Source: Bacteroidaceae bacterium
GTDB lineage: Bacteria > Bacteroidota > Bacteroidia > Bacteroidales > Bacteroidaceae
DNA length: 20,218 bases
Direction of reading: 5' to 3'
Assembly: GCA_017619585.1 (NCBI GenBank)
Contig: JAFZSA010000016.1
Span: forward strand, 1-20,218
Below, one piece after another: positions 1-19,308 of the stretch. The position numbers and the translations under genes are program-made. The notes beneath the pieces are model-generated. The model searched no databases. It was given only the letters and a program-made list of their open reading frames with translations, and had not been told where the DNA came from. Numbering within the stretch: position 1 is the first letter of the stretch; every line of letters begins with the position of its first letter.

Positions 1-2567
1 AAAATTCTGCACTCCCATCGGGGAGCGGGGAGGGGGTTGTCTCTGTAACAAACTTCAAGACTCATCCGGTACGCTTCCTGAGCGCTGCCAAGAATGGGTT
101 GCTGTGCTATACCTATAACGGAGAGATCTATACGCAGAAGAATGGCGGGAAGCCCAAGAAACTGAACATTACGCTGACACGTGATGATGAGGCTGTAATA
201 GCCGACCTTAGCTTCACGAGCGGTGCACGCCAGTCGGTAGTAAGCAAGGACGGCAAGCAGATTGCCTTTGTGGTACGTGGCGAGGTCTTTGTTACCAGCA
301 CTGAATATGCCACAACACGCAGAATATCTCAGACGGCAGGTGCTGAGGGCGATGTTGACTTTGCTCCTGATGGTAGGACTGTAGCCTATGCCTCCGAGCG
401 CAACGGCAACTGGCAGCTCTATACCGCCAGCATAGTCAGGGACGAGGATCTGAACTTTGCCAACGCTACGCTGATAAAGGAGGAGAGCGTGTTCCCTGAA
501 CTGCCTGCTTTGAAGCTGGATGGTAAGCCTGACTTCTCGCAGGTGGAGCGCAGATACCCCAAGTACAGTCCTGATGGCAAGAAGCTGGCCTTTATAGAGG
601 ACCGTATCAAACTGAAGGTGGTGGACCTGAAGACCAAGAAGGTGACGCAGGTTACGGACGGCAGTAAGTGGTACAACCAGAGTGGAGGCTTTGAATATGA
701 ATGGAGCCCAGACGGCAAGTGGTTTGTGATAAGCTTTATTGCCAATCGTCGCGATCCCTATCAGGATATGGGTATCGTCAGTGCCGAGGGTGGTGAGATT
801 CATCCTATCACACAAAGCGCTTACATAAGCCAGAATCCCCGTTGGGTGATGGACGGCAAGGCTATCCTCTTCGAGAGCGAACGCTATGGTATGCGTAGTC
901 ACGCTTCGTGGGGCAGCCAGCAGGATGTGTTCCTGGCCTTCCTGACTCAGGATGCCTATGACCGTTATCGTCTCTCTCCTGAGGACTATGCGCTGCTGAA
1001 GGAGTTGGAGAAGAAAGGCCTACCCCCAACCCCTCCCGAAGGGAAGGGAGATAAGAAAAAAGATAAAGAGAAGAAAAGCCTACCCCCAACCCCTCCCGAA
1101 GGGAAGGGAGATAAAAGCAAGGCTGATTCTGTCAAATTGCTGAAGATAGAGTTTGAGGGGCTGGAGGACCGCATTGTCAGGTTGACACCTAACAGCAGTA
1201 AGTTGGGTGATGCCATTGTCAGCAAGGATGGCGAGAGCCTGTACTATTTCTCGGCCTTTGAGGGCTCGCCCGACCTGTGGAAGATGGATTTGCGCAAGCA
1301 TGAGACCAAGCTGCTGAGCAAGGGCGGAAGCGGATCCCTGCATATGGATAAGGACGGCAACCTGTACTCACTGGGTAGCAGCATGAAGAAGATAGAGAAG
1401 GGGGACAAGACTACCTCTATTACCTACAATGCCCAGATGAAGTTGGATCTGGCTGCTGAACGTGAATATATGCTGCGCCACGTGGCCAAGCAGATCAACA
1501 AGAAGATCTTCCGTACGGATTACAATGGTTGCGACTGGGATCTGATGGTGCAGAACTATGCCCGCTTCTTGCCGCACATCTCTAACAACTATGACTTTGC
1601 CGAGATGCTGAGCGAGCTGCTTGGCGAACTGAACGTCAGCCATACTGGCGGACGCTTCTATCCCTCTGCCAAGGGCGATGCCACGGCTCAGTTGGGTTTG
1701 CTCTATGACCTGTCAGAGGCTACAGACGGCATGAAGATTACCGCTGTGCTGGAGGACGGTCCTTTCTGTCGTGCCAACAGCAAGGTGAAGGTGGGGGATG
1801 TCGTTACTGCCATCAACGGAGAGCCTGTAACCAAGGATACCGACTTGGCTCAGTTGCTGAACCGCTGCAAGGGCAAGAAGACACTGGTAAGCCTAAAGGG
1901 TAGTGCCGGCACCTGGGATGAGGTGGTACTGCCTATCAGCAGAGGAGAAGAGTCCGACCTGTTGTACAAGCGCTGGATTAAGAGTCGTGCTGCCGAGGTG
2001 GAACGTCTCTCTAACGGACGCTTAGGCTATGTACACATAGAGGGTATGGATGACGCCAGCTTCCGCGATGTCTACTCAGACATCTTGGGCAAGTACAACC
2101 TGAAGGAGGGTATTGTGATAGACACCCGTTTCAATGGTGGCGGTCGTCTGCATGAGGATATAGAGATTCTGTTCTCAGGCCATAAATACTTCACACAGGT
2201 GATTCGCGGCAGGGAGGCTTGTGATATGCCCAGTCGCCGTTACAACCATCCCAGCATTATGCTGCAGGCCGAGGGTAACTACAGCAACGCCCACGGAACA
2301 CCTTGGGTGTACAGTCATCAGAAGATAGGTAAGCTGGTGGGTGCTCCCGTGCCGGGAACCATGAGCTCCGTGAACTGGGAGACCTTGCAGGATGCTTCAC
2401 TGGTATTCGGCGTACCCGTCATAGGCTATCAGTTGCCAGACGGTTCTTATCTGGAGAATACTCAGTTGGAGCCTGATATACCTGTACTGAACCTGCCTGA
2501 GACAGTTGTCACAGGTACCGACCTGCAGTTGGAGGCCGCAGTACGTGAGTTGCTGAAGGAACTTTAG
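1..2567 (+). CDS. Tricorn-like S41 family peptidase, 3' part (5' end outside window)
   Basis: The frame is open from base 3 with no stop, so the TTG near base 99 is not the real start and the N-terminus lies upstream. The visible part starts in a WD40-like beta-propeller (repeated SPDGK/APDGR blades, bases ~60-1400). A PDZ-like domain follows around 1740-1930 (KVGDVVTAINGEPV), then the tail-specific protease domain at ~1990-2510. The motif NYSNAHG at 2277-2297 fits the usual nucleophile region, with Ser at 2283-2285. Family members are large exported peptidases thought to degrade peptides in the periplasm. Three copies of a GC-rich palindromic repeat are translated in frame: one just before the blade starting VTNFKTHPVRFLS, and two in the Lys-rich linker at 1010-1129. 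The stop overlaps the convergent gene by 4 bases. Family assignment is firm; the substrate is unknown. Confidence 0.88.
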   Translation, partial: NSALPSGSGEGVVSVTNFKTHPVRFLSAAKNGLLCYTYNGEIYTQKNGGKPKKLNITLTRDDEAVIADLSFTSGARQSVVSKDGKQIAFVVRGEVFVTSTEYATTRRISQTAGAEGDVDFAPDGRTVAYASERNGNWQLYTASIVRDEDLNFANATLIKEESVFPELPALKLDGKPDFSQVERRYPKYSPDGKKLAFIEDRIKLKVVDLKTKKVTQVTDGSKWYNQSGGFEYEWSPDGKWFVISFIANRRDPYQDMGIVSAEGGEIHPITQSAYISQNPRWVMDGKAILFESERYGMRSHASWGSQQDVFLAFLTQDAYDRYRLSPEDYALLKELEKKGLPPTPPEGKGDKKKDKEKKSLPPTPPEGKGDKSKADSVKLLKIEFEGLEDRIVRLTPNSSKLGDAIVSKDGESLYYFSAFEGSPDLWKMDLRKHETKLLSKGGSGSLHMDKDGNLYSLGSSMKKIEKGDKTTSITYNAQMKLDLAAEREYMLRHVAKQINKKIFRTDYNGCDWDLMVQNYARFLPHISNNYDFAEMLSELLGELNVSHTGGRFYPSAKGDATAQLGLLYDLSEATDGMKITAVLEDGPFCRANSKVKVGDVVTAINGEPVTKDTDLAQLLNRCKGKKTLVSLKGSAGTWDEVVLPISRGEESDLLYKRWIKSRAAEVERLSNGRLGYVHIEGMDDASFRDVYSDILGKYNLKEGIVIDTRFNGGGRLHEDIEILFSGHKYFTQVIRGREACDMPSRRYNHPSIMLQAEGNYSNAHGTPWVYSHQKIGKLVGAPVPGTMSSVNWETLQDASLVFGVPVIGYQLPDGSYLENTQLEPDIPVLNLPETVVTGTDLQLEAAVRELLKEL
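7..40 (+). repeat. GC-rich palindromic element, copy A (inside S41 CDS)
   Basis: CTCCC-atc-GGGGAG hairpin followed by a G-rich tail (GGGGAGGGGG). It has the same layout as the seven other copies in the window and is translated in frame as roughly ALPSGSGEGVV, just before a conserved blade of the peptidase. Confidence 0.6.
1010..1129 (-). repeat. Two GC-rich palindromic elements in a 60-bp tandem duplication (copies B and C, inside S41 CDS)
   Basis: Two nearly identical 60-base units (about 1010-1069 and 1070-1129) each carry CCCCTCCCGAAGGGAAGGG flanked by A-rich Lys codons. Each unit is translated as LPPTPPEGKGDK plus a lysine-rich spacer. Read on the minus strand, the element matches the others (hairpin then GGGGTTGGGGG tail). 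The period is a multiple of three, so the frame is kept. The site is the low-complexity Lys-rich linker between propeller parts, where extra residues are likely tolerated. Confidence 0.85.
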
Positions 2568-3640
2568 CGAAGGAATCTTCCGTCGCGATAGACAGTTGGG
2601 GCGATCTTCTTCTTTGCCTTGAAGAACTTGGCAAAGGCTATTTGGGAAGTGAACCCCAACTGCTGTGATATCTGCTGGATAGTCAGGGAGGTGGTAGAGA
2701 GTAATTGCTCACACTCCTGCAAGAGGTAATCGTCTATTACCTGCTTGGGCGACCGTCCGCAGACGGTATTTGTAATCTGTGACAGATAGCGGGTGGAAAT
2801 AGACAACTGTGTAGCGTAGAAGGAAACATCGTGCGCTGTTGTGTAATGCTCGGAGAGGAGCGTCATAAACTGGTTGTAGAGGTTATGAGGCTGCAATGAG
2901 CGTGGCTGTGCCGAGGCATAGACCACCTGGCTGTGCATATAGTTGTGGGCATTGGTGATGGCGGTGGGTACATCATCAGTCTGCGTCAGTTGTGCCGCTA
3001 TGGCTGTGGAGAGCGTCCCGCCTACACCGTGACGCTGCCATCCCTCGATATTCACCGACGAGAAGAATTTCTGGCACCCAGGACCGGAGAGCAGAGCATT
3101 GATACGCCCCTTGGCAAAGGTTCCGCCACGGAGCAGTACCCACTGCGGGCCCATCTGGTGCAGCAGGGCAGCGGCCTCAGTCATATCAGTGTCCGTGCTG
3201 ATACGATGGCCTAACAGAATCTCGACATCCGTACATTTTATAATAAGCAGTTTGCAGACGGGGAAGAGGTGCTGGCGGTAAGCCACCAGGGATTCATTGG
3301 ACATAAGCAGTCCGCCGTGGGATGCCAGTACCACCAGTGAGCAGACGATATTAGGACAGCCCAATATCTCCTGACCAATGGCGCGGATAGTCTCGGCATT
3401 ATCCATCATTCCTATCTTTATGGCATTGGGGATGGTCTCCTCGTACACTGCCTTAACCTGTCCCACCACCAGGGTAGGGGGCAGCTGGTGTACATCTGTA
3501 ATGCCCAAAGAGTTCTGTATGGTCACAGCCGTTACGGCCGTTACGGCATAACAACCAAGATCCTTGATGGTGCGTATGTCGGCCTGAATGCCGGCATGCC
3601 CCATACTGTCTGAACCATTGATACAAAGCACTGATTTCAT
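2564..3640 (-). CDS. ThiD/pyridoxal-kinase-like domain fused to AraC-type HTH regulator
   Basis: 358 residues. Residues ~1-245 look like a ThiD/PdxK ribokinase-fold enzyme: GSDSMGHAGIQAD at 9-21, TAVTIQNSLG at 37-46, IKIGMM at 74-79, HGVGGTLSTAIAA at 204-216. Residues ~260-358 are an AraC/XylS double helix-turn-helix (LSISTRYLSQ, ...QISQQLGFTSQIAFAKFFKA). The ThiD anion-hole motif HGTGCT reads HGVGGT here, so the usual Cys is Gly208, and the TPN.xE stretch is altered (IIKCTDVE). Catalysis may be weak or lost, which suggests a ligand-sensing role. The gene is divergent from pdxS across ~500 bases, so a regulator of PLP synthesis responding to a B6 vitamer is the best guess; a thiamin pyrimidine ligand is the alternative. 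The start ATG is at 3640. The stop overlaps the S41 gene by 4 bases. Domain calls are strong; function is inference. Confidence 0.85.
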   Translation of the reverse strand: MKSVLCINGSDSMGHAGIQADIRTIKDLGCYAVTAVTAVTIQNSLGITDVHQLPPTLVVGQVKAVYEETIPNAIKIGMMDNAETIRAIGQEILGCPNIVCSLVVLASHGGLLMSNESLVAYRQHLFPVCKLLIIKCTDVEILLGHRISTDTDMTEAAALLHQMGPQWVLLRGGTFAKGRINALLSGPGCQKFFSSVNIEGWQRHGVGGTLSTAIAAQLTQTDDVPTAITNAHNYMHSQVVYASAQPRSLQPHNLYNQFMTLLSEHYTTAHDVSFYATQLSISTRYLSQITNTVCGRSPKQVIDDYLLQECEQLLSTTSLTIQQISQQLGFTSQIAFAKFFKAKKKIAPTVYRDGRFLR

Positions 3641-3647
3641 ATTTCTT

Positions 3648-3669
3648 TCAATTCAAAATTCATAATTTA
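3648..3669 (-). repeat. AT-rich ATTCATAATT-family repeat (copy R1)
   Basis: AATTCAAAATTCATAATT lies 8 bases upstream of the start codon of the minus-strand kinase-AraC gene. The same family occurs at 5121-5155, 6653-6683 and 20040-20082. Confidence 0.6.
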
Positions 3670-3705
3670 GTTGACAAGTAAACAAGTTGACAAGTTGACA
3701 AGTTA
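3670..3705 (+). repeat. Short tandem TTGACAAG repeats
   Basis: Three TTGACAAG units and one related AACAAG unit in a row, in the transcribed leader of the minus-strand gene. No function is evident. Confidence 0.65.
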
Positions 3706-3817
3706 TTCGCTAACCTCTAACCGCTAATCTTTAACCGCTATCTTTTACAATTTGATAACAAAACTCATAAGCTACTAAGCCATTAAGCTATTAGCCACTA
3801 ACCCTTTATGGTCTTTT

Positions 3818-3850
3818 TCGATATATCGATATTACGTTATAACGTTATTT
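3818..3850 (+). repeat. AT-rich palindromic block, left arm flanking pdxS
   Basis: Contains CGATATATCG (3819-3828) and CGTTATAACGTTATTT (3835-3850). The exact reverse complement of the 16-mer is at 5068-5083, on the other side of pdxS. Confidence 0.7.
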
Positions 3851-3871
3851 CAATTTATTCTAATCAGACGG

Positions 3872-3903
3872 CTCCCTCTCCTTAGGGGAGGGACGGGGTG
3901 GGG
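3872..3903 (+). repeat. GC-rich palindromic element, copy D
   Basis: CCCTCTCC-TTA-GGGGAGGG hairpin with a G-rich tail. The G side forms four runs (3885-3888, 3890-3892, 3895-3898, 3900-3903) with loops of 1, 2 and 1 bases, a textbook quadruplex motif. It lies in the predicted leader of the kinase-AraC gene. Confidence 0.7.
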
Positions 3904-3946
3904 CTTCTTGCCCCTTGCCCCATGCTCCTTGCCCCTAAATATATTG

Positions 3947-3978
3947 CAAAGGTAAGGCAAATACCTTACTTACCCAAA
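3947..3978 (-). promoter_or_regulatory. Bacteroidetes-type promoter for the kinase-AraC gene
   Basis: On the minus strand, TTTG (complement of 3975-3978), a 20-base spacer and TACCTTTG (complement of 3947-3954) match the Bacteroidetes consensus exactly. Transcription would start near 3940 and give a leader of about 300 bases, long for this group and made mostly of repeats. Confidence 0.7.
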
Positions 3979-3984
3979 TAAGTA
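3952..3984. promoter_or_regulatory. Two overlapping 18-bp inverted repeats, candidate operator
   Basis: GTAAGG-6-CCTTAC (3952-3969) and TACTTA-6-TAAGTA (3967-3984) are both perfect 6+6+6 inverted repeats. They overlap the promoter elements of the minus-strand gene. A further GTAAGG is at 4012-4017, between the two divergent promoters. The AraC-domain protein encoded alongside is the natural candidate to bind; this is inference. Confidence 0.4.
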
Positions 3985-4067
3985 TTCCGTTTTTGGTAAT
4001 ATTTCTTCTTTGTAAGGAATGTTTTCCCATATTGGAAGGGATTTTTCTGTAGGAAACCACTCTGATG

Positions 4068-4075
4068 TAATTTTG
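4068..4075 (+). promoter_or_regulatory. Likely -7 element of the pdxS promoter
   Basis: TAATTTTG matches TAnnTTTG and lies 65 bases upstream of the pdxS start. The -33 region has no clear TTTG (TTTTTCTG at 4042-4049 is the nearest). A weak -33 would fit a promoter that needs an activator, such as an AraC-type protein. Confidence 0.5.
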
Positions 4076-4140: not shown

Positions 4141-5013
4141 ATGGAAGACAGAACTCAATTGAACCGCAACCTGGCTCAGATGCTGAAGGGCGGAGTGATA
4201 ATGGATGTAACAACACCAGAACAGGCTAAGATTGCCGAAGAGGCCGGTGCCTGTGCAGTAATGGCACTGGAGCGTATCCCCGCAGACATTCGTGCTGCCG
4301 GTGGTGTAAGTCGTATGAGCGACCCCAAGATGATACGTGGTATTCAGGAAGCCGTTTCTATTCCCGTTATGGCCAAGTGCCGTATCGGTCATTTTGCCGA
4401 GGCTCAGATCCTGGAGGCAATAGAGATTGACTACATTGACGAGAGCGAGGTTCTCTCACCAGCTGATGATATCTATCACATTGACAAGCGTAAGTTCAAG
4501 GTGCCCTTTGTCTGCGGTGCCAAGGATCTGGGCGAGGCATTGCGTCGTATCAACGAGGGTGCTACCATGATTCGTACCAAGGGTGAGCCCGGTACAGGTG
4601 ATATCATTCAGGCCGTTCGTCATATGCGCATGATGCAGAGCGAGATTCGTCGTTTGGTGAGCATGAGTGAGGATGAATTGTATGAGGCTGCCAAGCAGTT
4701 GCGTGTTCCCTACGAACTGGTACAGTATGTACACGAGAACGGCAAACTGCCCGTAGTGAACTTTGCTGCCGGTGGTGTGGCTACACCTGCCGATGCTGCA
4801 CTGATGATGCAGTTGGGTGCCGAGGGCGTATTCGTAGGAAGCGGTATCTTCAAGAGCGGCAATCCCGTTAAGCGTGCCCAGGCCATCGTTAAGGCTGTTA
4901 CCAACTACAACAATCCCAAGATTCTGGCTGAACTGAGCGAGGACTTAGGTGAGGCTATGGTTGGTATCAACGAGCAGGAGATAGAACTGCTGATGGCAGA
5001 GAGAGGAAAATAG
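4141..5013 (+). CDS. pdxS: Pyridoxal 5'-phosphate synthase lyase subunit PdxS
   Basis: 290 residues, full length for the family. PdxS makes PLP from ribose 5-phosphate, glyceraldehyde 3-phosphate and ammonia; the ammonia is delivered by PdxT. It is a cytosolic (beta/alpha)8 barrel that forms the core of the synthase complex. Visible landmarks are the N-terminal MDV (Asp22), the catalytic-lysine segment MAKCRIGH (Lys79), DYIDESEVL, the second conserved lysine in RTKGEPGTG (Lys147), and the phosphate-binding [20 protein letters not shown] plus [10 protein letters not shown]. The start is preceded by an A-rich stretch (ACTAAAAAAAAACAATA), as expected for SD-less Bacteroidetes genes. pdxT follows 126 bases later on the same strand. 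Arg codons are nearly all CGT, suggesting good expression. Mirror-image repeats flank the gene. Confidence 0.97.
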
Positions 5014-5038
5014 ACCCCCCGTCCCCCTTTAGGGGGAG
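5014..5038 (-). repeat. GC-rich palindromic element, copy E
   Basis: Begins directly after the pdxS stop. TCCCCCTTTAGGGGGA hairpin; on the minus strand it reads TCTCCCCCTAAAGGGGGA then a G-rich tail, identical over 18 bases to copy F inside pdxT about 240 bases away. It could form a hairpin in the pdxS-pdxT mRNA, but no U-tract follows, so it is not a typical terminator. Confidence 0.8.
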
Positions 5039-5066
5039 AAAGAGTGTAGCCGCAAACAAAAGAATC

Positions 5067-5120: not shown

Positions 5121-5155
5121 TAACTATGAACTATGAACTATGAATTATGAACTAA
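5121..5155 (+). repeat. AT-rich TATGAAC tandem repeat (copy R2), contains the pdxT start
   Basis: CTATGAA is repeated (5123-5129, 5131-5137, 5138-5144) and followed by TTATGAAC. The pdxT ATG (5140) is one of four ATGs inside the repeat. On the same strand it resembles copy R3 (GAATTGTGAATTATGAATT). Confidence 0.7.
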
Positions 5156-5727
5156 AAATAGGTGTATTAGCACTGCAGGGAGCTTTCGAGGAACATTGTC
5201 AGGTGCTCAGGCGTCTGGGTGTGGATAGTGTTCTTATCCGCAACCTTGATGACTTTAATAAGTTTCTCCCCCTAAAGGGGGATGGGTCGTCTGGCCTTAT
5301 TCTGCCCGGTGGTGAGAGTACCGCTATGATGAGGGTAATGAGGGATGAGGCTCTGATGGAGCCCATCCGGAAGGCCATCAAGGAAGGACTGCCTGTACTG
5401 GGTACCTGTGCCGGAATGATTCTGCTGGACGACCAACATCTGGGCTGTATGGATGTTACAGTTAAGCGTAATGCCTATGGCCGTCAGTTGGGAAGCTTCC
5501 AGACCATACATAATATAAAAGGTATAGGTGATGTGTCAATGGTATTCATCCGTGCCCCTTATATAGAGCGGTGCGGTGAAGGGGTAGAGGTACTCTCTAC
5601 CTTGGACGGACATGTTGTGGCAGCAAAAGAGAAGAATATGCTGGCATGCTCCTTCCATCCTGAACTGACGGAGGATACACGTCTGCATGAGTACTGGCTT
5701 AAAGCGTTTGTACAGCAGAAGAGCTAA
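5140..5727 (+). CDS. pdxT: Pyridoxal 5'-phosphate synthase glutaminase subunit PdxT
   Basis: 195 residues. PdxT hydrolyses glutamine and channels ammonia to PdxS. Class I glutamine amidotransferase landmarks: [12 protein letters not shown] (8-19), [10 protein letters not shown] (52-61), nucleophile Cys90 in GTCAGM, RNAYGRQ (110-116), FIRAPYIE (136-143), and His173/Glu175 in SFHPELTED. Compared with the Bacillus subtilis protein there are about 9 extra residues ([10 protein letters not shown], 42-51) just before GLILPGGES. These are encoded by a GC-rich palindromic element (copy F). The start at 5140 lies in an AT repeat, and the first five residues (MNYEL) look repeat-derived; KIGVLALQG is the conserved N-terminus. 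No promoter was seen upstream, so co-transcription with pdxS is likely. The stop overlaps the convergent nnrD stop (5724-5727). Confidence 0.96.
5266..5289 (+). repeat. GC-rich palindromic element, copy F (inside pdxT)
   Basis: CTCCCCCTAAAGGGGGATGGG, the same core as copy E in the opposite orientation. It is translated as LPLKGDGS and coincides with a lineage-specific insertion in the loop before the oxyanion motif PGGES of PdxT. Confidence 0.85.
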
Positions 5728-11591: not shown

Positions 11592-12731
11592 ATGGGTGAA
11601 ATAAAAGTTGTCAAGGTAGAGAATTCCAAGCAGATGGACGCATTTGTTCAGCTGCCTAAAAGACTTTATGCAGGCAACCAATACTATGTCCCCGATTTGG
11701 ATAGCGATATCCGTGACATGTTCAACCCTAAGAAAAACACTGCTCTCAAATACGCAGACATTCAGGCTTTCCTGGCTTACAAAGACGGAAAGGTTGTTGG
11801 ACGTATTGCTGGAATCATCAATAGAAATGCTAACGAGCGCTGGAAGAAAAGCTGTGTCCGCTTCGGGCTTATAGAGTTCGAGGATGACATTGCTATCTCA
11901 GATGCTCTTCTGAAGGCTGTTGAGCAGTGGGGTGCTGAACGCGGAATGACGCAGATTCAGGGCCCGATGGGAATCATTGACTTTGACAAAGAAGGAATGC
12001 TGGTTGAGGATTTTGATCTCTTGGGCAGCATGATAGATATATACAATCCTCCCTATTATCCTCAGCACATGGAGAAGCTGGGCTACAAGAAGGAGGTTGA
12101 CTGGTTGCAGGTTAGGGTGGAGATACCCAAGGAGGTTCCTGCCAAATATGCCCGCGTTGCCAAACTGTCGAAGGAAATGTTCGGTCTGAAGGTGCGGAAA
12201 GTAAGTCGCAGGGAGATTCTGGGAGAGCAAGGACAGCGTGTGTTCCGCCTGATGAATGAAGCATATGCGCCTATCTTCGGGTATAGCGACCTGACAGAGG
12301 AGATGGTGACCGACCTTATCAAGAAGTACATTCCCATTCTGGACCCCGAGCTCATCACAACGGTTGAGAACGAAAAGGGAGAGATGGTCTGCGCTGCCGT
12401 AACAACGGGCAGTTTGTCTCATACCCTTCGCAAGTCAAACGGTAAACTGCTGCCCTTCGGATGGATTCATTTCTTGAAGACACTCTTCTTCAAGAGTGAG
12501 GATACAGTGAACCTGATGCTTATAGCCGTACGTCCTGATATGCAGGGTTTGGGCGTGAATGCATTGGTGTTTGATGACCTGATTCCCATCTACAACCGCA
12601 AGGGCTATAAGTATGCCGAGACGGGTCCTCAGTTGGAGGATAACGTTAAGGAATTGTCGCAGTGGAAGCCTCTGAATCCCAAGATGCAGAAGCGCAGAAG
12701 GTGCTGGATTAAATCGATTGAAAACAAATAA
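11592..12731 (+). CDS. GNAT-fold acyltransferase-like protein (YghO-like)
   Basis: 379 residues, no signal peptide. The N-terminal half has an acetyltransferase-like strand pattern (IQAFLAYKDGKVVGRIAGI, 57-75) and QIQGPMGIIDFDKEGMLV. The C-terminal half has a second GNAT-like core with VNLMLIAVRPDMQGLGVNAL, where MQGLG resembles the acyl-CoA pyrophosphate loop Q/RxxGxG/A. This layout is typical of a family usually annotated as GNAT or YghO-like. From memory and unchecked, a Caulobacter ceramide synthase belongs to a similar group, so an N-acyltransferase using long acyl chains is possible. The gene is first in the operon, 23 bases before the ketosynthase, so it may acylate or modify the polyene lipid, or simply be co-transcribed. 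Fold fairly sure; substrate unknown. Confidence 0.65.
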   Translation: MGEIKVVKVENSKQMDAFVQLPKRLYAGNQYYVPDLDSDIRDMFNPKKNTALKYADIQAFLAYKDGKVVGRIAGIINRNANERWKKSCVRFGLIEFEDDIAISDALLKAVEQWGAERGMTQIQGPMGIIDFDKEGMLVEDFDLLGSMIDIYNPPYYPQHMEKLGYKKEVDWLQVRVEIPKEVPAKYARVAKLSKEMFGLKVRKVSRREILGEQGQRVFRLMNEAYAPIFGYSDLTEEMVTDLIKKYIPILDPELITTVENEKGEMVCAAVTTGSLSHTLRKSNGKLLPFGWIHFLKTLFFKSEDTVNLMLIAVRPDMQGLGVNALVFDDLIPIYNRKGYKYAETGPQLEDNVKELSQWKPLNPKMQKRRRCWIKSIENK

Positions 12732-12754
12732 ACAGAAGAATATAAAATTAGATT

Positions 12755-13978
12755 ATGAATAGAGTTGTAATAACCGGTATGGGTATTTGGTCTTGTCTGG
12801 GTCAGAACCTGGATGATGTACGTGATGCCCTGTACCATGGAAAAAGTGGTATCATCTTCAGTCAGGAAAGAAAGGACGCAGGTTTCCGTTCTGCTTTGTG
12901 TGCAGATGTTCCTTCCGTTAATATCAAGAAACTTTTGGCACGTAACGTTCGTCAGTTTATGCCCGAAGAGGCTCAGTATGCCTATGTAGCTACTCAGCAG
13001 GCTTTGGAGAACGCAAAGATAGACCAGGACTTCCTGGATGCTCACGAGGTAGGTATCATCTATGGTAACGACTCTGTAGCAGAGAGTACCATGATTGCCT
13101 TGGATAAGTTCCGTGAGTTCAAGGATACTTCTGCCTGCGGTAGTGGTGCCATCTTCCAGAGTATGAACAGTACTGTTACCATGAACCTGGCTTGTCTGTT
13201 CAAGTTGCGTGGTATCAACCTGACATCATCTGCAGCCTGTGCTTCCAGCTCTCTGGCTATTGGTAATGCCTATCTGCTTATCAAGGAAGGTCTGCAGGAT
13301 TGTGTTATCTGCGGTGGTGCCCAGGAGGCTAATATGTACTGTGTTGCCAGCTTCGATGGTATCCAGGCATTCTCAACACGTGAGGATGAGCCTACCAAGG
13401 CATGCCGTCCCTTCGACCGCGACCGTGACGGTCTGGTTCCTGGCGGTGGTGCTGCTACATTGATTCTGGAAAGCTACGAGCATGCCGTTAAGCGTGGCGC
13501 TCCTATCATTGCCGAGATTGTAGGCTGGGGCTTCAGCGGTAACGGTGATCATATCTCTACACCTAACGTAGCCGGTCCTGCCCGCTCACTGGAGTTGGCT
13601 CTGAAGAACGGTGGTATTGATCCCCGTATGATTGGTTATGTTAACGCTCACGCTACCAGTACACATGCCGGTGACGGTAGAGAGGCTATGGCTATTGCCC
13701 AGTGCTTTGGTGACTACAAGGTGCCCGTTACCAGTACCAAGAGTCAGACAGGTCATGAGATGTGGATGGCAGGTGCCAGCGAGTGCATCTACTCTACACT
13801 GATGATGAAGAACGGCTTCATTGCCGGTAGCTTGAACTTCGAGAACCCCGATGAGGAGACAGCTTGCGTTAATGTCATTCCACAGACCATCGAGACAGGC
13901 TTTGATATGTTCCTGAGCAACAGCTTCGGCTTTGGCGGAACTAACAGTACCCTCATTGTGAAGGACTTTAAGGGTTAA
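12755..13978 (+). CDS. Beta-ketoacyl-ACP synthase, aryl-polyene/flexirubin type
   Basis: 407 residues, full-length type II KAS fold. It condenses malonyl-ACP with the growing acyl-ACP chain. The active-site triad is intact: Cys162 in SSAACASSS, His299 in NAHATSTHAGDG and His334 in KSQTGHEMWMAGAS with Lys329. GHEMWMAGASE differs from FabF (GHLLGAAGA) and resembles Bacteroidetes pigment-cluster ketosynthases as I recall them. The C-terminal NSFGFGGTNSTL is present. FabF of primary metabolism is unlikely because the neighbours are two non-standard dehydratases and a desaturase-like enzyme. Codons are strongly biased (GGT, CGT, ACC), more so than in the SGNH and glycosidase genes, suggesting higher expression. 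A 155-base repeat-filled spacer follows before the ACP. Confidence 0.9.
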   Translation: MNRVVITGMGIWSCLGQNLDDVRDALYHGKSGIIFSQERKDAGFRSALCADVPSVNIKKLLARNVRQFMPEEAQYAYVATQQALENAKIDQDFLDAHEVGIIYGNDSVAESTMIALDKFREFKDTSACGSGAIFQSMNSTVTMNLACLFKLRGINLTSSAACASSSLAIGNAYLLIKEGLQDCVICGGAQEANMYCVASFDGIQAFSTREDEPTKACRPFDRDRDGLVPGGGAATLILESYEHAVKRGAPIIAEIVGWGFSGNGDHISTPNVAGPARSLELALKNGGIDPRMIGYVNAHATSTHAGDGREAMAIAQCFGDYKVPVTSTKSQTGHEMWMAGASECIYSTLMMKNGFIAGSLNFENPDEETACVNVIPQTIETGFDMFLSNSFGFGGTNSTLIVKDFKG

Positions 13979-14004
13979 AAGATTATAAGATTATAACATA
14001 AATA

Positions 14005-14093
14005 GGTTAGCGGTTAAGGGTTAGCGGTTAGCGAAATCTTAATTATCAATACTCAATTAAAAGAGGTTATCGTTATCGTTGACGTTATCGTTG
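14005..14093 (+). repeat. Short repeats in the ketosynthase-ACP spacer
   Basis: GGTTAGCGGTTAAGGGTTAG and further TTAGCG units (14005-14033), preceded by GATTATAA tandem units (~13980-13996) and followed by TTATCGTTATCGTTGACG-type units (14065-14093). The TTAGCGG family also occurs in reverse near 3705-3740, and the ATAACG/CGTTAT type around pdxS. All lie in transcribed spacer. Confidence 0.7.
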
Positions 14094-14133
14094 AAACATT
14101 AATACATTTTTTTACAAATAACTATTTAAGATC

Positions 14134-14376
14134 ATGACAAGAGAAGAAATCATTGAAAAGACAATCGAGACTTTGACAGACGAGTTTGATGTAAACGAGG
14201 AAGAAATCGTCGAGGACGCTCCTATCTATCAGACCCTGCATCTCGACAGCCTGAGTCTTGTTGACCTGGTAGCTGTTGTACAGTACACTTTTAAGGTTAA
14301 GATTCCCGCAGAGGATCTTCCCAATGTTAAGACCTTCGGTAATCTGTATGATTACATCGAGAGCCACATGGCTTAA
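14134..14376 (+). CDS. Acyl carrier protein
   Basis: 80 residues, acidic, four-helix ACP type. The phosphopantetheine site is Ser39 in LHLDSLSLVDLV. It carries the growing polyene as a thioester on a 4'-phosphopantetheine arm. The start ATG follows an AT-rich stretch (AACTATTTAAGATC). The next gene starts 9 bases after the stop. The context (dedicated ketosynthase and dehydratases) makes it a pathway-specific ACP rather than the fatty-acid AcpP. No phosphopantetheinyl transferase is in the window. Confidence 0.95.
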   Translation: MTREEIIEKTIETLTDEFDVNEEEIVEDAPIYQTLHLDSLSLVDLVAVVQYTFKVKIPAEDLPNVKTFGNLYDYIESHMA

Positions 14377-14385
14377 TCTGATCGC

Positions 14386-14802
14386 ATGACAGATATCAAG
14401 AATCTCATACCTCAGCGCTCGCCAATCATGATGGTTGACGAGTTGCTTGAGGCTCATGATGATGTGGCACGCTGCAGCCTTACCATCAGGGAGGACAACT
14501 TCTTCCTTGAGCCCGACGGTGCTATTGCTGAACCGGGTGTGATAGAGCATATCGCACAGTCGGCTTCGGCTTTTGCCGGCTACAGTGCTATGCAGGCCGG
14601 TGCTACAGAACCGCCAGTAGGATATATTGGCGAGGTGAAGCGTTTCAGATTGAACCGAAGACCCTGTAAGGGTGAGACTTTGGTTACTACCATTACTATG
14701 GGACCCACTGTTGCCGGTGTTACTATCATCAGCGGCGAGACGGTTTCAGGCGAGGAGACAATTGCAACCACTCAAATGAAGATTTATGTTGCTGGAGAAT
14801 AA
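14386..14802 (+). CDS. Hotdog-fold dehydratase-like protein (ApeP/FabZ-like), Glu half-site
   Basis: 138 residues. LIPQRSPIMMVDELLE (7-22) matches the N-terminus of FabZ (LLPHR-P---VD). GVIEHIAQSASAFAGY (51-66) matches the FabZ helix ExMAQ, placing Glu54 on the catalytic Glu68 of E. coli FabZ. The FabZ histidine loop HFPGxPxxPG is replaced by LEPDGAIAEPG, with no histidine between residues 24 and 55. Alone it should lack the catalytic His. The next gene encodes a hotdog protein with the His but not the Glu, so a heterodimer is suggested. In proteobacterial aryl-polyene clusters a two-protein dehydratase (ApeI/ApeP) is known; this pair fits that role. Overlaps the next gene by 17 bases. Confidence 0.85.
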   Translation: MTDIKNLIPQRSPIMMVDELLEAHDDVARCSLTIREDNFFLEPDGAIAEPGVIEHIAQSASAFAGYSAMQAGATEPPVGYIGEVKRFRLNRRPCKGETLVTTITMGPTVAGVTIISGETVSGEETIATTQMKIYVAGE

Positions 14803-15151
14803 ATATTACAAGGTTTTACGCGCGCGTACAGAGGGAGAAGGAAAGGCTGTCTATCATGTGGCCATCCTGCCTGACTGCAACGTGTATCAGGGACATTTCC
14901 CAGGCAATCCTGTATGTCCAGGTGTTTGTAATATCCAGACTATAAAGGAGTGTGCATCATTACTTGTTGGTAAGGAGTTACGCATCTCGTCTATCAAACA
15001 ATGCCTGCTTACTGCAATTGCCACTCCGACGGTTTGTCCCGAGGTGGATGTAGAGGTCGAGGTAAAGGAGACGGACGGAAGTTACACCATTATTGCCAGT
15101 ATCTCTGATGAGGAGAGGCAGTATATGACCTTCAAAGGCGAACTTGTATGA
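14786..15151 (+). CDS. Hotdog-fold dehydratase-like protein (ApeI/FabZ-like), His half-site
   Basis: 121 residues. GHFPGNPVCPGV (36-47) is the FabZ/FabA histidine loop, His37 matching E. coli FabZ His54. Fourteen residues on, where FabZ has Glu68, there is Gln51 (NIQTIKECA). The usual acid is therefore missing, the reverse of the preceding protein. It begins inside the preceding gene (17-base overlap) and its stop overlaps the next gene by 8 bases, so the dehydratase genes are tightly coupled and probably made in equal amounts. Expected role: dehydrating 3-hydroxyacyl-ACP to the trans-2-enoyl form during polyene elongation. A thioesterase role is a less likely alternative. Confidence 0.85.
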   Translation: MLLENKYYKVLRARTEGEGKAVYHVAILPDCNVYQGHFPGNPVCPGVCNIQTIKECASLLVGKELRISSIKQCLLTAIATPTVCPEVDVEVEVKETDGSYTIIASISDEERQYMTFKGELV

Positions 15152-16520
15152 TGTTATAATCATAGGAAGCGGTCTGGGAGGTCTGGTCTGTGCCAACCTG
15201 CTCAGCAAGAAAGGGCAGAAAGTGCTCGTTCTTGAGCGTCAGCATCAGCCGGGCGGCTGTTTGCAGAGCTATCGTAGGGGTTCTATGATGTATGACACCG
15301 GACTTCACTATGTGGGAGGTCTGGCAGAGGGACAGCCTTTGCATGATATCTTCAAGGAACTTGATCTGTTGTCGCTGCCTTGGCAGAGACTGGATGCAGA
15401 AGGGTTCGACCGTATCATGGTAGGCGACCGCGAGTATCGCTTTGCTGAAGGCTTTGACAATTTTGTGGAGACTCTTGCCAAGGATTTCCCTGAGGACAAG
15501 GAAGCCCTTCAGCAATATGTCTCGCTCATGCAATGTACCGACGAGGAATGGATGCAGAAGACAAATGCCTATGAATACCTCAGCGGCATTGTCCGTAATC
15601 CCTTGCTGCTGAGCGTATTGAGCGGAGCTTGCCTGAAGATGGAATTGAAGCGTGATACGTTACCTCTGTTTACCTTCGTACATGGGAATGCTCCCTTCAT
15701 ACAGAGTAGCTGGAGATTGAAGGGCGACGGCAATCTTCTGGTCCGTAAGCTGATAGACAACCTTACCCGTCAGGGTGGAGAAGTTGTCTGTGATGCCGAG
15801 GTCGAGGAATTGGTAGAGAAAGACGGCATGATAAGGAAGGCTGTATGTAAGAATGGTCAGACTTATGAGGCACGATACTTCATTAGCGATGCCCATCCTT
15901 CGGTAACACTTTCTTTAGTGAAAGAGAGTCAGTTGCTGAAGAAGGTTTATCGCCGTAGAATAGATAATTTGGAAAATACTAATGGCATGTTTACGGTCCA
16001 GCTGCTGCTGAAGCCTGAAGAGGTGCCATATTTCAACTATAACGAGTTCCTGTATGACGGACTCGAGGCATGGGACGGACGTGGCTATATGGTCAGCTGC
16101 CGTGTTCCTGAGGACGGGTCTGCCTACGCACGTCAGATAGATATCCTCACGCCCATGAATATAAGCGAATGTGCAGCATGGACAGATACCCGTTGCATGC
16201 GTCGCGGAGAGGAATATCTGCAGTTCAAGGCACAGAAGGCCCGGCAGTGCATAGCTGTTGCGGAACGTTTCCTGCCTGGTCTGCATGAACATATACAGGA
16301 GGTTCATACCAGCACGCCGCTCACGTATAGGGATTACAACCTGACGCCTGACGGCAGTGCCTATGGGATACGCAAGGATGCTGCGGCTCCGCTCTTAACG
16401 GTATTGTCACCGCGTACAAGCATTCCCAACTTACTGCTTACCGGTCAGAACCTTATGCTGCATGGTCTGCATGGCGTAACCATGACCGCAATGTACACAA
16501 CAAAAGAAATTATAGATTAG
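15144..16520 (+). CDS. FAD-dependent oxidoreductase, phytoene desaturase/CrtI-like
   Basis: 458 residues. YDVIIIGSGLGGLVCANLL (2-20) is the dinucleotide-binding fold (GxGxxG), followed by VLVLERQHQPGGC (28-40). The C-terminal NLLLTGQNLMLHGLHGVTMT is the usual FAD-binding end of the CrtI/all-trans-retinol saturase group. The start must be TTG at 15144: the frame closes with TGA at 15126-15128, no ATG occurs between, and a later start would remove the first beta strand. The 8-base overlap with the preceding gene fits coupling. Possible jobs are dehydrogenation, isomerisation or saturation of the polyene or its aromatic end. Flexirubin-type clusters of Bacteroidetes often include such an enzyme, as far as I recall; the classic Vibrio aryl-polyene set does not. 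Confidence 0.85.
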   Translation: MYDVIIIGSGLGGLVCANLLSKKGQKVLVLERQHQPGGCLQSYRRGSMMYDTGLHYVGGLAEGQPLHDIFKELDLLSLPWQRLDAEGFDRIMVGDREYRFAEGFDNFVETLAKDFPEDKEALQQYVSLMQCTDEEWMQKTNAYEYLSGIVRNPLLLSVLSGACLKMELKRDTLPLFTFVHGNAPFIQSSWRLKGDGNLLVRKLIDNLTRQGGEVVCDAEVEELVEKDGMIRKAVCKNGQTYEARYFISDAHPSVTLSLVKESQLLKKVYRRRIDNLENTNGMFTVQLLLKPEEVPYFNYNEFLYDGLEAWDGRGYMVSCRVPEDGSAYARQIDILTPMNISECAAWTDTRCMRRGEEYLQFKAQKARQCIAVAERFLPGLHEHIQEVHTSTPLTYRDYNLTPDGSAYGIRKDAAAPLLTVLSPRTSIPNLLLTGQNLMLHGLHGVTMTAMYTTKEIID

Positions 16521-16529
16521 ATTATATAT

Positions 16530-19166
16530 ATGAAACGTCAGATAACACTCTTTCTGCTCATGATAGCTGTTGCCATACCATCTCTTGCTCAGATGGTTAC
16601 GGGTAAAGTCACTGATGCACTTGATGATGAACCCATGGAGCAGGCACAGATATGGTATAAGGACAGACCAACCGGAAAGATACTTAGCGATGCTAACGGT
16701 AACTATAAGATCCGATTCCGTCCCGGTACCCTTGTCTTCCATGCTTTCGGATATCAGGATGTTGAGGTAGTGGTTAAGAAAGCCCGCGTTCTGAACGTCA
16801 AGCTTTCAATGAATGCCAAGGAGATGAAGGCAGTTACCGTGCAGGAGACAAAGAAGAAGTATGTCCGTAAGGGCAATCCTGCTGTTGAACTGATGCAGAA
16901 GGTTATGAATGCCCGTAAAAGCGCGGATATCCATGATGCTGATTATGCCAGCTATGACAGGTATGTCAGCACAACAATGGCTCTTAACGATGTGGACACC
17001 ACTACATTGGATGCTGAGGACTTCAAGAAAGTCAATCTCTCTGCTGAATTCGCCGAGTACTGCCCCGAAACGGGTAAGATGATTCTGCCTATCAGCTTTG
17101 AGGAGCGTGCTACCAAGGAATACTACCGCAAGGACGGAGACCGACGCAAGAGTATTGTCATGGGCGAGCACAAAGAGAGTCTCTTGGACCTCTTGCAGGC
17201 CACTGAGTTCATAGAGTCCAAGATTAAGACCAATCTGATAGACGTTGATATATACAAGGATCAGACCGTAATCTTCCAGCACAACTTTATCAGCCCCCTT
17301 GGCGGTGCTGCTGCTATGCGATTCTATCATTATGCTATAGCTGATACAGTAGATTGTGATGGCGATTCCTGCATCATTGTCAACTTCCAGCCGGCCAACA
17401 AGCAGGACTTCGGATGGAACGGTAACCTCTATATCATGAACGACAGCACTTATCGTGTAAAGCGTGCCCGTATGGGTATGCCCATGGATAACAGTGTGAA
17501 CTTTGTGAAGCATCTGACATTGGATCAGGAGTTCGAGAGCCTGCCTTCCGGTCAGCAGTTCTGTACCAGCAACCGTATGATTATGCAGGTTGTACTGACA
17601 GAGAAGATCAAGAAGATGCACATCGAGCATTATGCCCATTACAGCAATATCAGCAATGAGCCTTTCTCGGATGAGTACATCAACTTCCTTGGCGACGAGA
17701 AGGTCGAGAAGGGCGCCAAGCATAGAACAGACGATTTCTGGGCAGAGTACAGACCTGATACGCTTACACACGGACAGATGCATATCAACGATCTGAAACG
17801 CAAGTTCACAGACCGTAAAGCCGTTCGTGCCGTGCTCTATGTTATGAAGGTCTTCTTGGATAACTACCTTGAGACAAGTGCCGACCCCAATCGTCCCAGT
17901 AAGGTGGATATAGGTCCCTTCTTCTCAACCTTCGGTAGTAACTGGGCAGAGGGTTTCCGTCTGCGTCTGGGTGCTCAGACCACAGGAGCCTTCAATAAGC
18001 ACCTGTTCCTAAGCGGATGGGGTAAGTATGGTTTCAAGGATCATAAGTTCAAGGGAGAGGGTAAGATCGCATACTCCTTTATCGAGAAGGAGAAAGACCT
18101 GATAGCTTATCCCAGACGTGATATCTCATTTACCTATACCCGTGATATCCAGAGTCCTTCTGATAAGTTCCTGCAGTACGACAAGGATAATACCTTTATG
18201 ACCCTTGCATGGCAGAAGACCCATCTGCAGAGCTACTTCGAGCGTTACCGTGCAGAAGCTATCTTCGAGTACGAGAATGGTCTGGCCTTGAACGGACACT
18301 TCAACCGCGAGTGGAACACTGGTGCCGGCGATTTGTACTTCCTTACCAACAGACAATGGAATGCCATAGACCAGAACTTCCTAAATAATCCTGACGCACT
18401 CATCGATGATGTCCAGTCTAATACGGTTACTTACACCGAGTTTAGTTTCGGTGCTTCTTATCAGCCCGGTCTTAAGGTCCTGAATACCCGTACCAAGCGT
18501 TACCTCTCTAACCTGGAGGCTCCTAAGTATGGCATTCAGCATACTGTAGGTATAAAGGGATTCCTGGGAGGCGACTATAACTACAACATGACTGAGTTTA
18601 CCTTCAGCAAGCGTTTCTGGCTGAACTCATGGGGTAGTGTAGATGGTCTTGTTCATGCTTCTTTCCAGTGGAACAGGGTTCCTTTCCCCTTGCTTATCAT
18701 TCCCGAGGCTAACCTCAGCTATATCCGTAGCCGTAACACCTTCAATCTGATTGGCAACATGGAGTTCCTGCATGACCGCGCTGTCACTACTATGTGGCGT
18801 TGGGATCTCAACGGTAAGATCTTTAACCGTATTCCTCTGCTCAAGAAACTCAAGTGGCGTGAGTCTGTAGCCCTGAACACTATGTGGGGTTACCTCACCA
18901 ACAAGAATAATCCGTTGATTGCAGAAAATCAGAATGATGATTTCCTCTACCGTTTCCCCGGTAAGTGGGTAGCTCAGGAAGATGGCACATCCCAGTATGT
19001 AAGTTCTACAAGACCCTTGAATAGCTGGAAACCATACATCGAGGCTGCCGTAGGAATACATAATATTCTCAAGTTCCTCTCTTTCGAGTACACTCATCGT
19101 TTCACATACGTTGAACCCGGTACACAGAGATGGGGCTTCCGCTTCTACTTCGAGGCAGGGTTCTAA
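16530..19166 (+). CDS. DUF5686-type outer-membrane protein with carboxypeptidase-regulatory-like domain
   Basis: 878 residues. Signal peptide ~1-20 (KRQITLFLLMIAVAIPSLA). Residues ~22-95 form a CarboxypepD_reg-like beta-sandwich (VTGKVTDALDDEPMEQAQIW, FHAFGYQDVEV) as seen at the N-terminus of TonB-dependent receptors. No TonB plug is seen. Residues ~100-878 match the DUF5686 family, and the C-terminal part has alternating amphipathic strands ending RFYFEAGF, with a terminal Phe typical of outer-membrane beta-barrels. The start is 9 bases after the oxidoreductase stop, so it is in the operon. Its role is unknown; an outer-membrane step in placing or anchoring the pigment lipid is an inference from position. 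Confidence 0.85.
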   Translation: MKRQITLFLLMIAVAIPSLAQMVTGKVTDALDDEPMEQAQIWYKDRPTGKILSDANGNYKIRFRPGTLVFHAFGYQDVEVVVKKARVLNVKLSMNAKEMKAVTVQETKKKYVRKGNPAVELMQKVMNARKSADIHDADYASYDRYVSTTMALNDVDTTTLDAEDFKKVNLSAEFAEYCPETGKMILPISFEERATKEYYRKDGDRRKSIVMGEHKESLLDLLQATEFIESKIKTNLIDVDIYKDQTVIFQHNFISPLGGAAAMRFYHYAIADTVDCDGDSCIIVNFQPANKQDFGWNGNLYIMNDSTYRVKRARMGMPMDNSVNFVKHLTLDQEFESLPSGQQFCTSNRMIMQVVLTEKIKKMHIEHYAHYSNISNEPFSDEYINFLGDEKVEKGAKHRTDDFWAEYRPDTLTHGQMHINDLKRKFTDRKAVRAVLYVMKVFLDNYLETSADPNRPSKVDIGPFFSTFGSNWAEGFRLRLGAQTTGAFNKHLFLSGWGKYGFKDHKFKGEGKIAYSFIEKEKDLIAYPRRDISFTYTRDIQSPSDKFLQYDKDNTFMTLAWQKTHLQSYFERYRAEAIFEYENGLALNGHFNREWNTGAGDLYFLTNRQWNAIDQNFLNNPDALIDDVQSNTVTYTEFSFGASYQPGLKVLNTRTKRYLSNLEAPKYGIQHTVGIKGFLGGDYNYNMTEFTFSKRFWLNSWGSVDGLVHASFQWNRVPFPLLIIPEANLSYIRSRNTFNLIGNMEFLHDRAVTTMWRWDLNGKIFNRIPLLKKLKWRESVALNTMWGYLTNKNNPLIAENQNDDFLYRFPGKWVAQEDGTSQYVSSTRPLNSWKPYIEAAVGIHNILKFLSFEYTHRFTYVEPGTQRWGFRFYFEAGF

Positions 19167-19172
19167 GAGCCT

Positions 19173-19283
19173 CTCCATCTCCCCCTTTGGGGGAGTGTTT
19201 ATAGTTAAGAGTTATAAATATAAAAAGTATATAATTAAGGTCTTTCCTTCAGAAAATACACTCCCCCAAAGGGGGAGATGGAG
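19173..19283. repeat. 111-bp MITE-like element with 26-bp perfect inverted repeats (GC palindromes G and H)
   Basis: The arms at 19173-19198 and 19258-19283 are exact reverse complements over 26 bases. Each contains the palindrome CTCCCCCTTTGGGGGAG or its complement plus ATGGAG. The 59-base AT-rich centre holds no gene. It sits in the 142-base spacer before fabG. Each arm is itself a copy of the GC-rich palindromic family. Nothing like a transposase is nearby. Confidence 0.8.
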
Positions 19284-19308
19284 GGGGTCGGATTTTATTA
19301 ATTAAGAT

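Follow-up and report, generated by a model that had tools for sequence, protein, structure and literature searches.

In the stretch of DNA analysed here (the window: 20,218 nucleotides, positions 1 to 20,218 of contig JAFZSA010000016.1 in the Bacteroidaceae bacterium assembly GCA_017619585.1, from a relative of gut and rumen Prevotella), a gene that joins a domain resembling the vitamin kinases ThiD and PdxK to an AraC-type helix-turn-helix (HTH) domain lies beside pdxS and pdxT, which encode the subunits of pyridoxal 5'-phosphate (PLP) synthase. We refer to this gene as the fusion and regard its product as a likely regulator of vitamin B6 synthesis. The locus contains the following genes and features:

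2564..3640, minus strand: fusion gene (predicted ThiD/PdxK-like pseudokinase plus AraC-type HTH), 358 amino acids; open reading frame (ORF) with Pfam PF08543 and PF12833/PF00165
2915..3640, minus strand: ThiD-like putative sensor domain, ribokinase fold, residues 1-242
3017..3019, minus strand: Gly208 codon at the position of the ThiD catalytic Cys, from alignments
2582..2818, minus strand: AraC-type HTH region, residues 275-353; HTH_18 at 64.4 bits (cut-off 33.6), sequence matches to AraC, SoxS and MarA in the PDB
4141..5013, plus strand: pdxS, PLP synthase lyase subunit, predicted target; NCBIfam TIGR00343 at 511.1 bits (cut-off 438.45)
5140..5727, plus strand: pdxT, PLP synthase glutaminase subunit, predicted target 3' of pdxS; NCBIfam TIGR03800 at 224.5 bits (cut-off 105.55)

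The fusion ORF is intact, with an ATG start and no internal stop codon. Besides HTH_18, its product matches Phos_pyr_kin over residues 11-242 (184.4 bits, Pfam cut-off 27) and PF00165 (27.4 bits, cut-off 26.6), and it combines the ribokinase-like ThiD fold of the PF08543 kinases with an AraC-type HTH, as an earlier note on the window had proposed. Its score against the equivalog of hydroxymethylpyrimidine phosphate (HMP-P) kinase, TIGR00097, was 178.7 bits, below the curated cut-off of 204.95. A Pfam scan at E<=1e-3 found neither a GntR-type winged HTH (wHTH) nor an aminotransferase-like domain in the fusion, and no match to ROK or ThiN domains. A structure model of the window protein shows a full-length ribokinase fold (predicted local distance difference test, pLDDT, 87.6), and the structures nearest to its kinase domain are of the ThiD type (7r8y, 8g1h, 4jjp, 1ub0 and 1jxi). 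Because the VIA structure comparison effectively covered only model residues 1-255, the assignment of the HTH fold rests on sequence. Since pdxS and pdxT, both above their equivalog cut-offs, start at 4141 and 5140 on the plus strand, the fusion gene is divergent from pdxST, which the earlier note had also stated.

Catalytic residues and the trimmed class

The earlier note had read Gly208, within HGVGGT, as a substitution of the anion-hole Cys of ThiD and had described the TPN segment as altered. Both readings held in the alignments: Gly208 aligned to the Cys of the HG.GCT motif in five structures, Cys occupied this position in 22/22 canonical ThiD rows from related genomes, and ThiD T-P-N aligned to I133-I134-K135 of the window protein. 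The loss extends beyond this one protein. Across 99 fusion rows, near-identical rows included, position 208 was G in 57, N in 35, A in 4 and S in 3, with the catalytic Cys or the ribokinase Asp in 0/99; in 25 aligned ThiD-type rows it was C in 22 and D in 3, and the TPN Asn was present in all 25. Among the best 120 of 1543 database matches, position 208 was Gly in 113 and Ser in 3, the search expression being unmatched in the other 4.

Residues were compared between 51 long plus 37 short or intermediate fusion rows and the 22 canonical ThiD rows (numbering of the window protein, with ThiD letters for lost positions). Both fusion classes kept G9, S10, D11, G17, Q19, D21, G29, Q61, K75, G77, P102, G109, H204 and G205, and both lost T133-P134-N135, K171, T206, C208 and K232. 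The nucleotide-side TPN segment and the KGG Lys expected of a kinase are gone in long and short classes alike, and the GSD and QAD motifs on the substrate side are retained. ThiD Gln42 is retained in 78% of long and 100% of short or intermediate rows. Ala8 of ThiD is replaced by Thr, Asn or Ser in 88/88 fusion rows tallied, so the substrate site is altered. With these residues lost across all rows examined and the substrate-side motifs kept, the kinase domain of the fusion is, as judged from its residues, catalytically dead.

In many relatives the domain is also shorter. Residues ~137-202, which include the GG loop of the nucleotide half, were absent or cut down in 36 of the 52 fusions of the family sample (29 missing, 7 reduced), and the proteins concerned are 292-339 residues long. 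A model of one 300-residue short-class protein (pLDDT 88.2) matched 7r8y with E 5e-13 and template modelling (TM) scores of 0.52/0.67; ThiD structures were still matched, less well. On a quick tree of 113 rows, with deleted columns left out and the root placed on ThiD, fusions and ThiD stood apart with a Shimodaira-Hasegawa-like approximate likelihood ratio test (SH-aLRT) value of 100. Short and intermediate against long proteins appeared there as one change among the fusions, many inner branches being weak, and two long proteins (L172 and L187) were placed beside the short clade. Because all fusion classes lack the Cys, the simplest order of events has catalysis lost first and the deletion later. 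Locus L046, considered as a possible broken gene, proved to encode an intact 293-residue member of the short class. A second fusion was seen in genome G687, where a short-class paralogue (L260, 5773-6687, minus strand) lies some 57 kb away from the long fusion linked to pdxS; the ORF adjoining this paralogue looks, by its start, like an AAA-type ATPase.

Distribution and linkage to pdxS

At E<=1e-3, 1543 database proteins matched the fusion (6814 candidates scored), a number that may include plain kinases. The best 120 of them are 58-92% identical to it and all except P0047 carry both domain families, so the fusion is no product of chance or of a frameshift. Where the source databases name fusion proteins, they label them kinases.

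Relatives were sampled round genome G001. A scan of genome contigs gave 48 loci, two of which (L047 and L048) do not encode the fusion and were dropped; the others, L001-L046, are recorded as Bacteroidales taxa or uncultured bacteria, with isolates that include Hallella colorans, H. bergensis, Prevotella illustrans and Prevotella sp. S7-1-8. At 43 of these 46 fusion loci pdxS lies no more than about 2.1 kb from the fusion, in divergent orientation in 13, co-directional with the fusion upstream in 29 and tail to tail in one (L035). No pdxS was present in the stretch examined at L009, L040 and L041; among the genomes of these loci, G340 and G341 carry it elsewhere.

In the family, pdxS was found in 59 of 301 genomes, at 60 loci. 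Of these loci, 46 have a fusion next to pdxS (gap <=681 bp), 6 have one that is not adjacent but lies no more than 8 kb away, and at the other 8, one of which (G194) is on a 4.7-kb contig, no fusion was found; 43 of the 46 adjacent pairs are co-directional. Among the matches listed for family genomes, in which short-class fusions are split or absent, kinase and HTH were joined in none of the 8 genomes with a fusionless locus, and pdxS was present in 16/16 genomes whose match spans both parts. Fusions were found in 5 of 247 genomes of an order sample (G001, G687, G724, G779 and G819), all with pdxS, and in the four that lie outside the family pdxS adjoins a fusion in each. In a phylum sample of 345 genomes, at a cut-off of E<=1e-60 that can miss the short class, the fusion was found only in G001, and two other genomes matched over the kinase part alone. 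The fusion is present in several Bacteroidales families, and its homologs mostly adjoin pdxS. A consistent placement beside unrelated genes, which the earlier note had named among the outcomes that would count against it, was not the pattern seen. Because the loci are related in sequence, these counts are not of independent events. In genome G298 (L188, 10196-10624, plus strand), an AraC-only remnant covering profile positions 237-358 was seen directly 5' of pdxS, with a full fusion 7.3 kb off.

A conserved element at the pdxS and fusion promoters

Two predicted operators, each with a Bacteroidetes-type -7 box, lie between the fusion and pdxS:

3973..4010, minus strand: predicted operator that faces the promoter of the fusion, with CGGAATACTTATTTGGG inside it; its GAA core starts at 3987 (reading down), and ten related divergent loci share the 33-nt distance between core and -7 box
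3947..3954, minus strand: Bacteroidetes-type -7 box TACCTTTG of the fusion gene
4008..4047, plus strand: predicted pdxS operator, TTTGTAAGGAATG then TTTTCCCATATTGGAAGG; GAA core 4035-4037; expectation-maximization (EM) motif, W34 score 32.8 and W40 score 41.2 bits
4068..4075, plus strand: Bacteroidetes-type -7 box TAATTTTG of pdxS, 33 nt 3' of the GAA core

These two predicted operator/promoter units (3947-4075) nearly coincide with the DNA target at 3950-4070 named in the earlier note. For the EM analysis, 8 of 39 upstream regions were dropped (the near-duplicates L003, L016, L024, L025, L033 and L038; L001; and L046, which has a 16-base gap). In the remaining 31 regions a motif of 34 bases reached a mean of 26.2 bits, against 12.3-13.1 in six shuffled sets. 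Scores were low at L011 (7.2), where the site is farther upstream than the 260 bases given to EM, and at L043 (7.9).

A position weight matrix (PWM) built from 28 sites, with the long class as training set, was run over the 60 loci of the family sample, with 311 random 250-bp pieces as background (99% at 6.6, maximum 14.9). None of the 8 fusionless loci exceeded the 99% level (top score 0.7). At the six loci with a remote fusion (2.3-7.3 kb), the scores upstream of pdxS were 20.2, 17.8, 17.2, 23.0, 2.3 and -0.9, and the predicted element is associated with the fusion even when the fusion gene lies kilobases away. The best single contrast comes from one genus, g31, in which G290 has neither fusion nor site and G333 has both. 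Where fusion and pdxS nearly touch, the site usually stands before the fusion, that is, before the joint operon.

The distance to the promoter is narrowly distributed. In 65 of 91 regions, a set that includes some near-duplicates, the motif was accompanied by a -7 box (T[AT]nnTTTG) at 22-48 nt. The GAA core precedes the -7 box of the pdxS unit by 32-34 nt in 53 of the 65, against 0.65 of 91 in shuffles and 0/8 in fusionless loci. By a second rule, a site at 32-34 nt was found in 60 of 79 regions (divergent 11/13, co-directional 23/30, short class 26/36). Self-comparison of the proximal half-site within these predicted sites gave a lag of 21 bp in co-directional loci and 21-22 bp in the short class.

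Each of the two promoters, that of pdxS and that of the fusion, has the element 33-34 nt from a -7 box in 11 of 15 divergent regions, against 0.355 of 15 in shuffled divergent regions matched in one direction. The 11 are the window, with 33 nt at each promoter, and L001, L002, L004-L008, L010, L011 and L019; they are the examined members of the window's divergent group, in which the double element is thus without exception, and L020, L027, L261 and L262 did not fit the rule. The 17-base core pattern TTTRTCANAANNGGAAC had 9 matches in 24 genomes (one each in 9 genomes, none in 15), 8 of them at the pdxST unit, and the reversed control had 3. No wider regulon emerged from this search for exact matches to a short-class pattern, the sole match away from pdxST (G320, L212) lying inside a coding region, and there may be further targets. 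Control by a thiamin pyrophosphate (TPP) or other riboswitch was rejected: no Rfam match reached the gathering score in the window, and a scan of six fusion and six ThiD loci returned only tmRNA and tRNA. Because the ThiD loci also gave no riboswitch, this null result does not separate B6 from thiamin.

Other observations concern the sequences around the predicted operators. Upstream of pdxS in L015-L018 and L030-L032, the proximal half-site makes up, by eye, one arm of an inverted repeat that, with the T-run after it, resembles a terminator; in co-directional loci this repeat may end the fusion transcript, and the operator seems to have bases in common with the terminator. A long leader separates the promoter of the fusion from its start codon (window 3641-3946; likewise in L001) and contains dispersed-looking repeats (ttgacaag and CCCTCTCCTTAGGGGAGGG-like), and an element similar to them, CCCCCTTTAGGGGG, stands at about 5016-5042. 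On the far side of pdxT, a gene for NAD(P)H-hydrate dehydratase (TIGR00196; 5724-6560, minus strand) is tail to tail with pdxT, overlapping its 3' end by 4 bases, and in the close relatives L001-L007 and L019 pdxT is likewise followed by a homologue. Successive ORFs at 11592-20037, named from reading them as ketosynthase-like, small acyl carrier protein (ACP)-like, dehydratase-like, flavin adenine dinucleotide (FAD)-oxidoreductase-like and FabG-like, resemble an aryl-polyene or flexirubin-type cluster.

Proposed regulation and comparison with known systems

Linkage and the conserved element at a fixed distance support the earlier note's proposal of pdxST control. On this sequence evidence, we consider it likely that the fusion is an AraC-type regulator of pdxST and of itself with a pseudokinase sensor, probably an activator, that answers a B6 vitamer. 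The N-terminal domain, presumably descended from a ThiD/PdxK-type vitamin kinase, would transfer no phosphate, would keep the substrate-side motifs and would sense a vitamer, most likely PLP or pyridoxal. The AraC-type HTH would bind the element just upstream of the -33 region, with its GAA core near -40, at the pdxS promoter and, in the divergent arrangement, also at the promoter of the fusion itself; among co-directional relatives, the predicted element forms a clear direct repeat with 21-bp spacing. With the vitamer scarce, pdxST would be activated, and with the pocket filled activation would stop, the fusion gene also being under positive self-control. The class-II position is where AraC-type activators touch polymerase, and the site ends about 33 nt before the -7 box, against the -33 element, from which we infer activation of pdxST and positive self-control. 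An independent hint comes from the list of the ten most up-regulated genes of Prevotella bivia in PMC11410844, where, in the values as printed, pdxT (3.43) is first, pdxS (3.03) third and a gene annotated as bifunctional hydroxymethylpyrimidine (HMP)/pyridoxamine phosphate (PMP) kinase (2.68), which may be the fusion, sixth. A cob(I)yrinic acid adenosyltransferase and a phosphate transporter appear in the same list (PMC11410844).

Several observations weigh against this proposal. The PWM exceeded the 99% background level upstream of pdxS or the fusion in only 23 of 52 fusion loci. Of these, L150, L165 and L181 duplicate loci of the training set or come close to doing so, and in L168, L180 and L193 the PWM match differs from the element seen by eye. 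Two remote-fusion loci scored just 2.3 (L174) and -0.9 (L171), a site being visible by eye in both, and when a distance of 32-34 nt is required the element is missing from 19 of 79 regions. In the divergent class, the window's own, the repeat lag peaks at 17-18 and more weakly at 22, not at 21. The second fusion of G687 does not adjoin pdxS, and no pdxS was found in G339, a metagenome-assembled genome (MAG) with a fusion. Finally, the Cys that binds pyridoxal covalently in S. aureus PdxK is lost here, so vitamer binding would have to differ.

The same regulator might instead repress pdxST, the vitamer-bound protein blocking RNA polymerase at the -33 region until it is released when B6 is scarce. 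The element abuts this region, where bound protein could hinder polymerase, and pdxS and the fusion share the element in divergent loci. Repressors usually tolerate varied positions, however, whereas the GAA-to-minus-7 spacing is 32-34 nt in 53/65 regions though 22-48 was allowed, as expected for polymerase contact, and most AraC-family regulators at such a position activate, for example AraC at I1-I2; repression is accordingly an unlikely account. That the ligand is a thiamin precursor, HMP or HMP-P, which would couple B6 synthesis to thiamin metabolism, we judge to be less probable again. The domain is nearest to ThiD-type structures and keeps Gln42 and the GSD and QAD motifs, but its genes' neighbours are pdxS and pdxT, 8 of 9 core-pattern matches are at the pdxST unit, the Ala8 replacement marks a changed site, and ThiD-type proteins bind pyridoxal and PLP too (PDB titles 4c5l and 4ywr). 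Gene context favours B6 over thiamin as the signal, for a pocket that would descend from the HMP site.

It is very doubtful that the element is part of the pdxS promoter as such, or the site of another factor, with the fusion acting elsewhere. Co-inheritance of gene and element could follow from their usual adjacency, but the element is absent before pdxS in 8/8 fusionless loci, including G290 of the same genus as G333, stays at pdxS in four clear cases with the fusion kilobases away, occurs at the fusion's own promoter and shows an AraC-like 21-bp repetition in co-directional loci. A bifunctional protein, still active as a pyridoxal or HMP kinase, has hardly any credibility despite the full-length fold of the long class and the kinase names in databases, with the catalytic Cys or Asp in 0/99 rows, TPN and the KGG Lys gone and most of the nucleotide half absent from the short class.

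Beyond a vitamer-responsive regulator of pdxST, we lean towards the view that the fusions form an independently evolved class of B6-sensing factor, in which a dead ThiD kinase is paired with an AraC HTH, one branch is trimmed to a minimal sensor, and pdxST and the fusion itself are activated from a fixed distance. If so, it would name a regulator of PLP synthesis in Bacteroidales, with fusions at or near 52/60 pdxS loci in one family. Active enzyme, dead enzyme and trimmed sensor would form a natural series, and element, spacing and two promoters make a precise prediction. Kinase labels in source databases can mislead reconstructions of B6 and thiamin pathways. The short class, the predicted two-way operator and the mostly co-directional relatives (29/43 in the locus scan, 43/46 of adjacent family pairs) go beyond the earlier note.

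That note knew of no described regulator with this architecture, and we likewise found no description of it, of the pairing with a dead ThiD domain or of the trimmed class in open-licence papers, where absence is no proof; 'AraC' does not occur in the main-text portions of PMC9997740, PMC6593275 and PMC5320631. From ThiD and ThiD2-type PdxK kinases the fusion differs by the lost catalytic Cys, TPN and KGG Lys, by the added HTH and, in one clade, by the trimmed nucleotide half. It resembles AraC in its C-terminal HTH and in the predicted repeated half-sites near the -35/-33 region, and differs from it in the sensor, a cupin in AraC and a vitamin-kinase fold here. ROK-family repressors (NagC/Mlc) and archaeal ThiR also join a kinase-like or thiamin-enzyme domain to a DNA-binding domain; ROK proteins are built on an actin-like sugar-kinase fold, ThiR on a ThiN domain, and the fusion contains neither characteristic domain. 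Enzyme-derived sensors with an HTH are thus already known from MocR, ROK and ThiR proteins. In function the likeness would be to PdxR, of the MocR subfamily of GntR, with which the fusion shares predicted pdxST control and an enzyme-derived sensor domain. In several species apo-PdxR is described as binding the common pdxST-pdxR intergenic region, activating pdxST and repressing itself, with PLP as anti-activator (PMC5320631). PdxR consists of a GntR-type wHTH and a PLP-binding aminotransferase-like domain and represses itself, whereas the fusion consists of a ThiD-fold pseudokinase and an AraC HTH, would activate itself, and seems to be a vitamin B6 regulator of a type not yet described.

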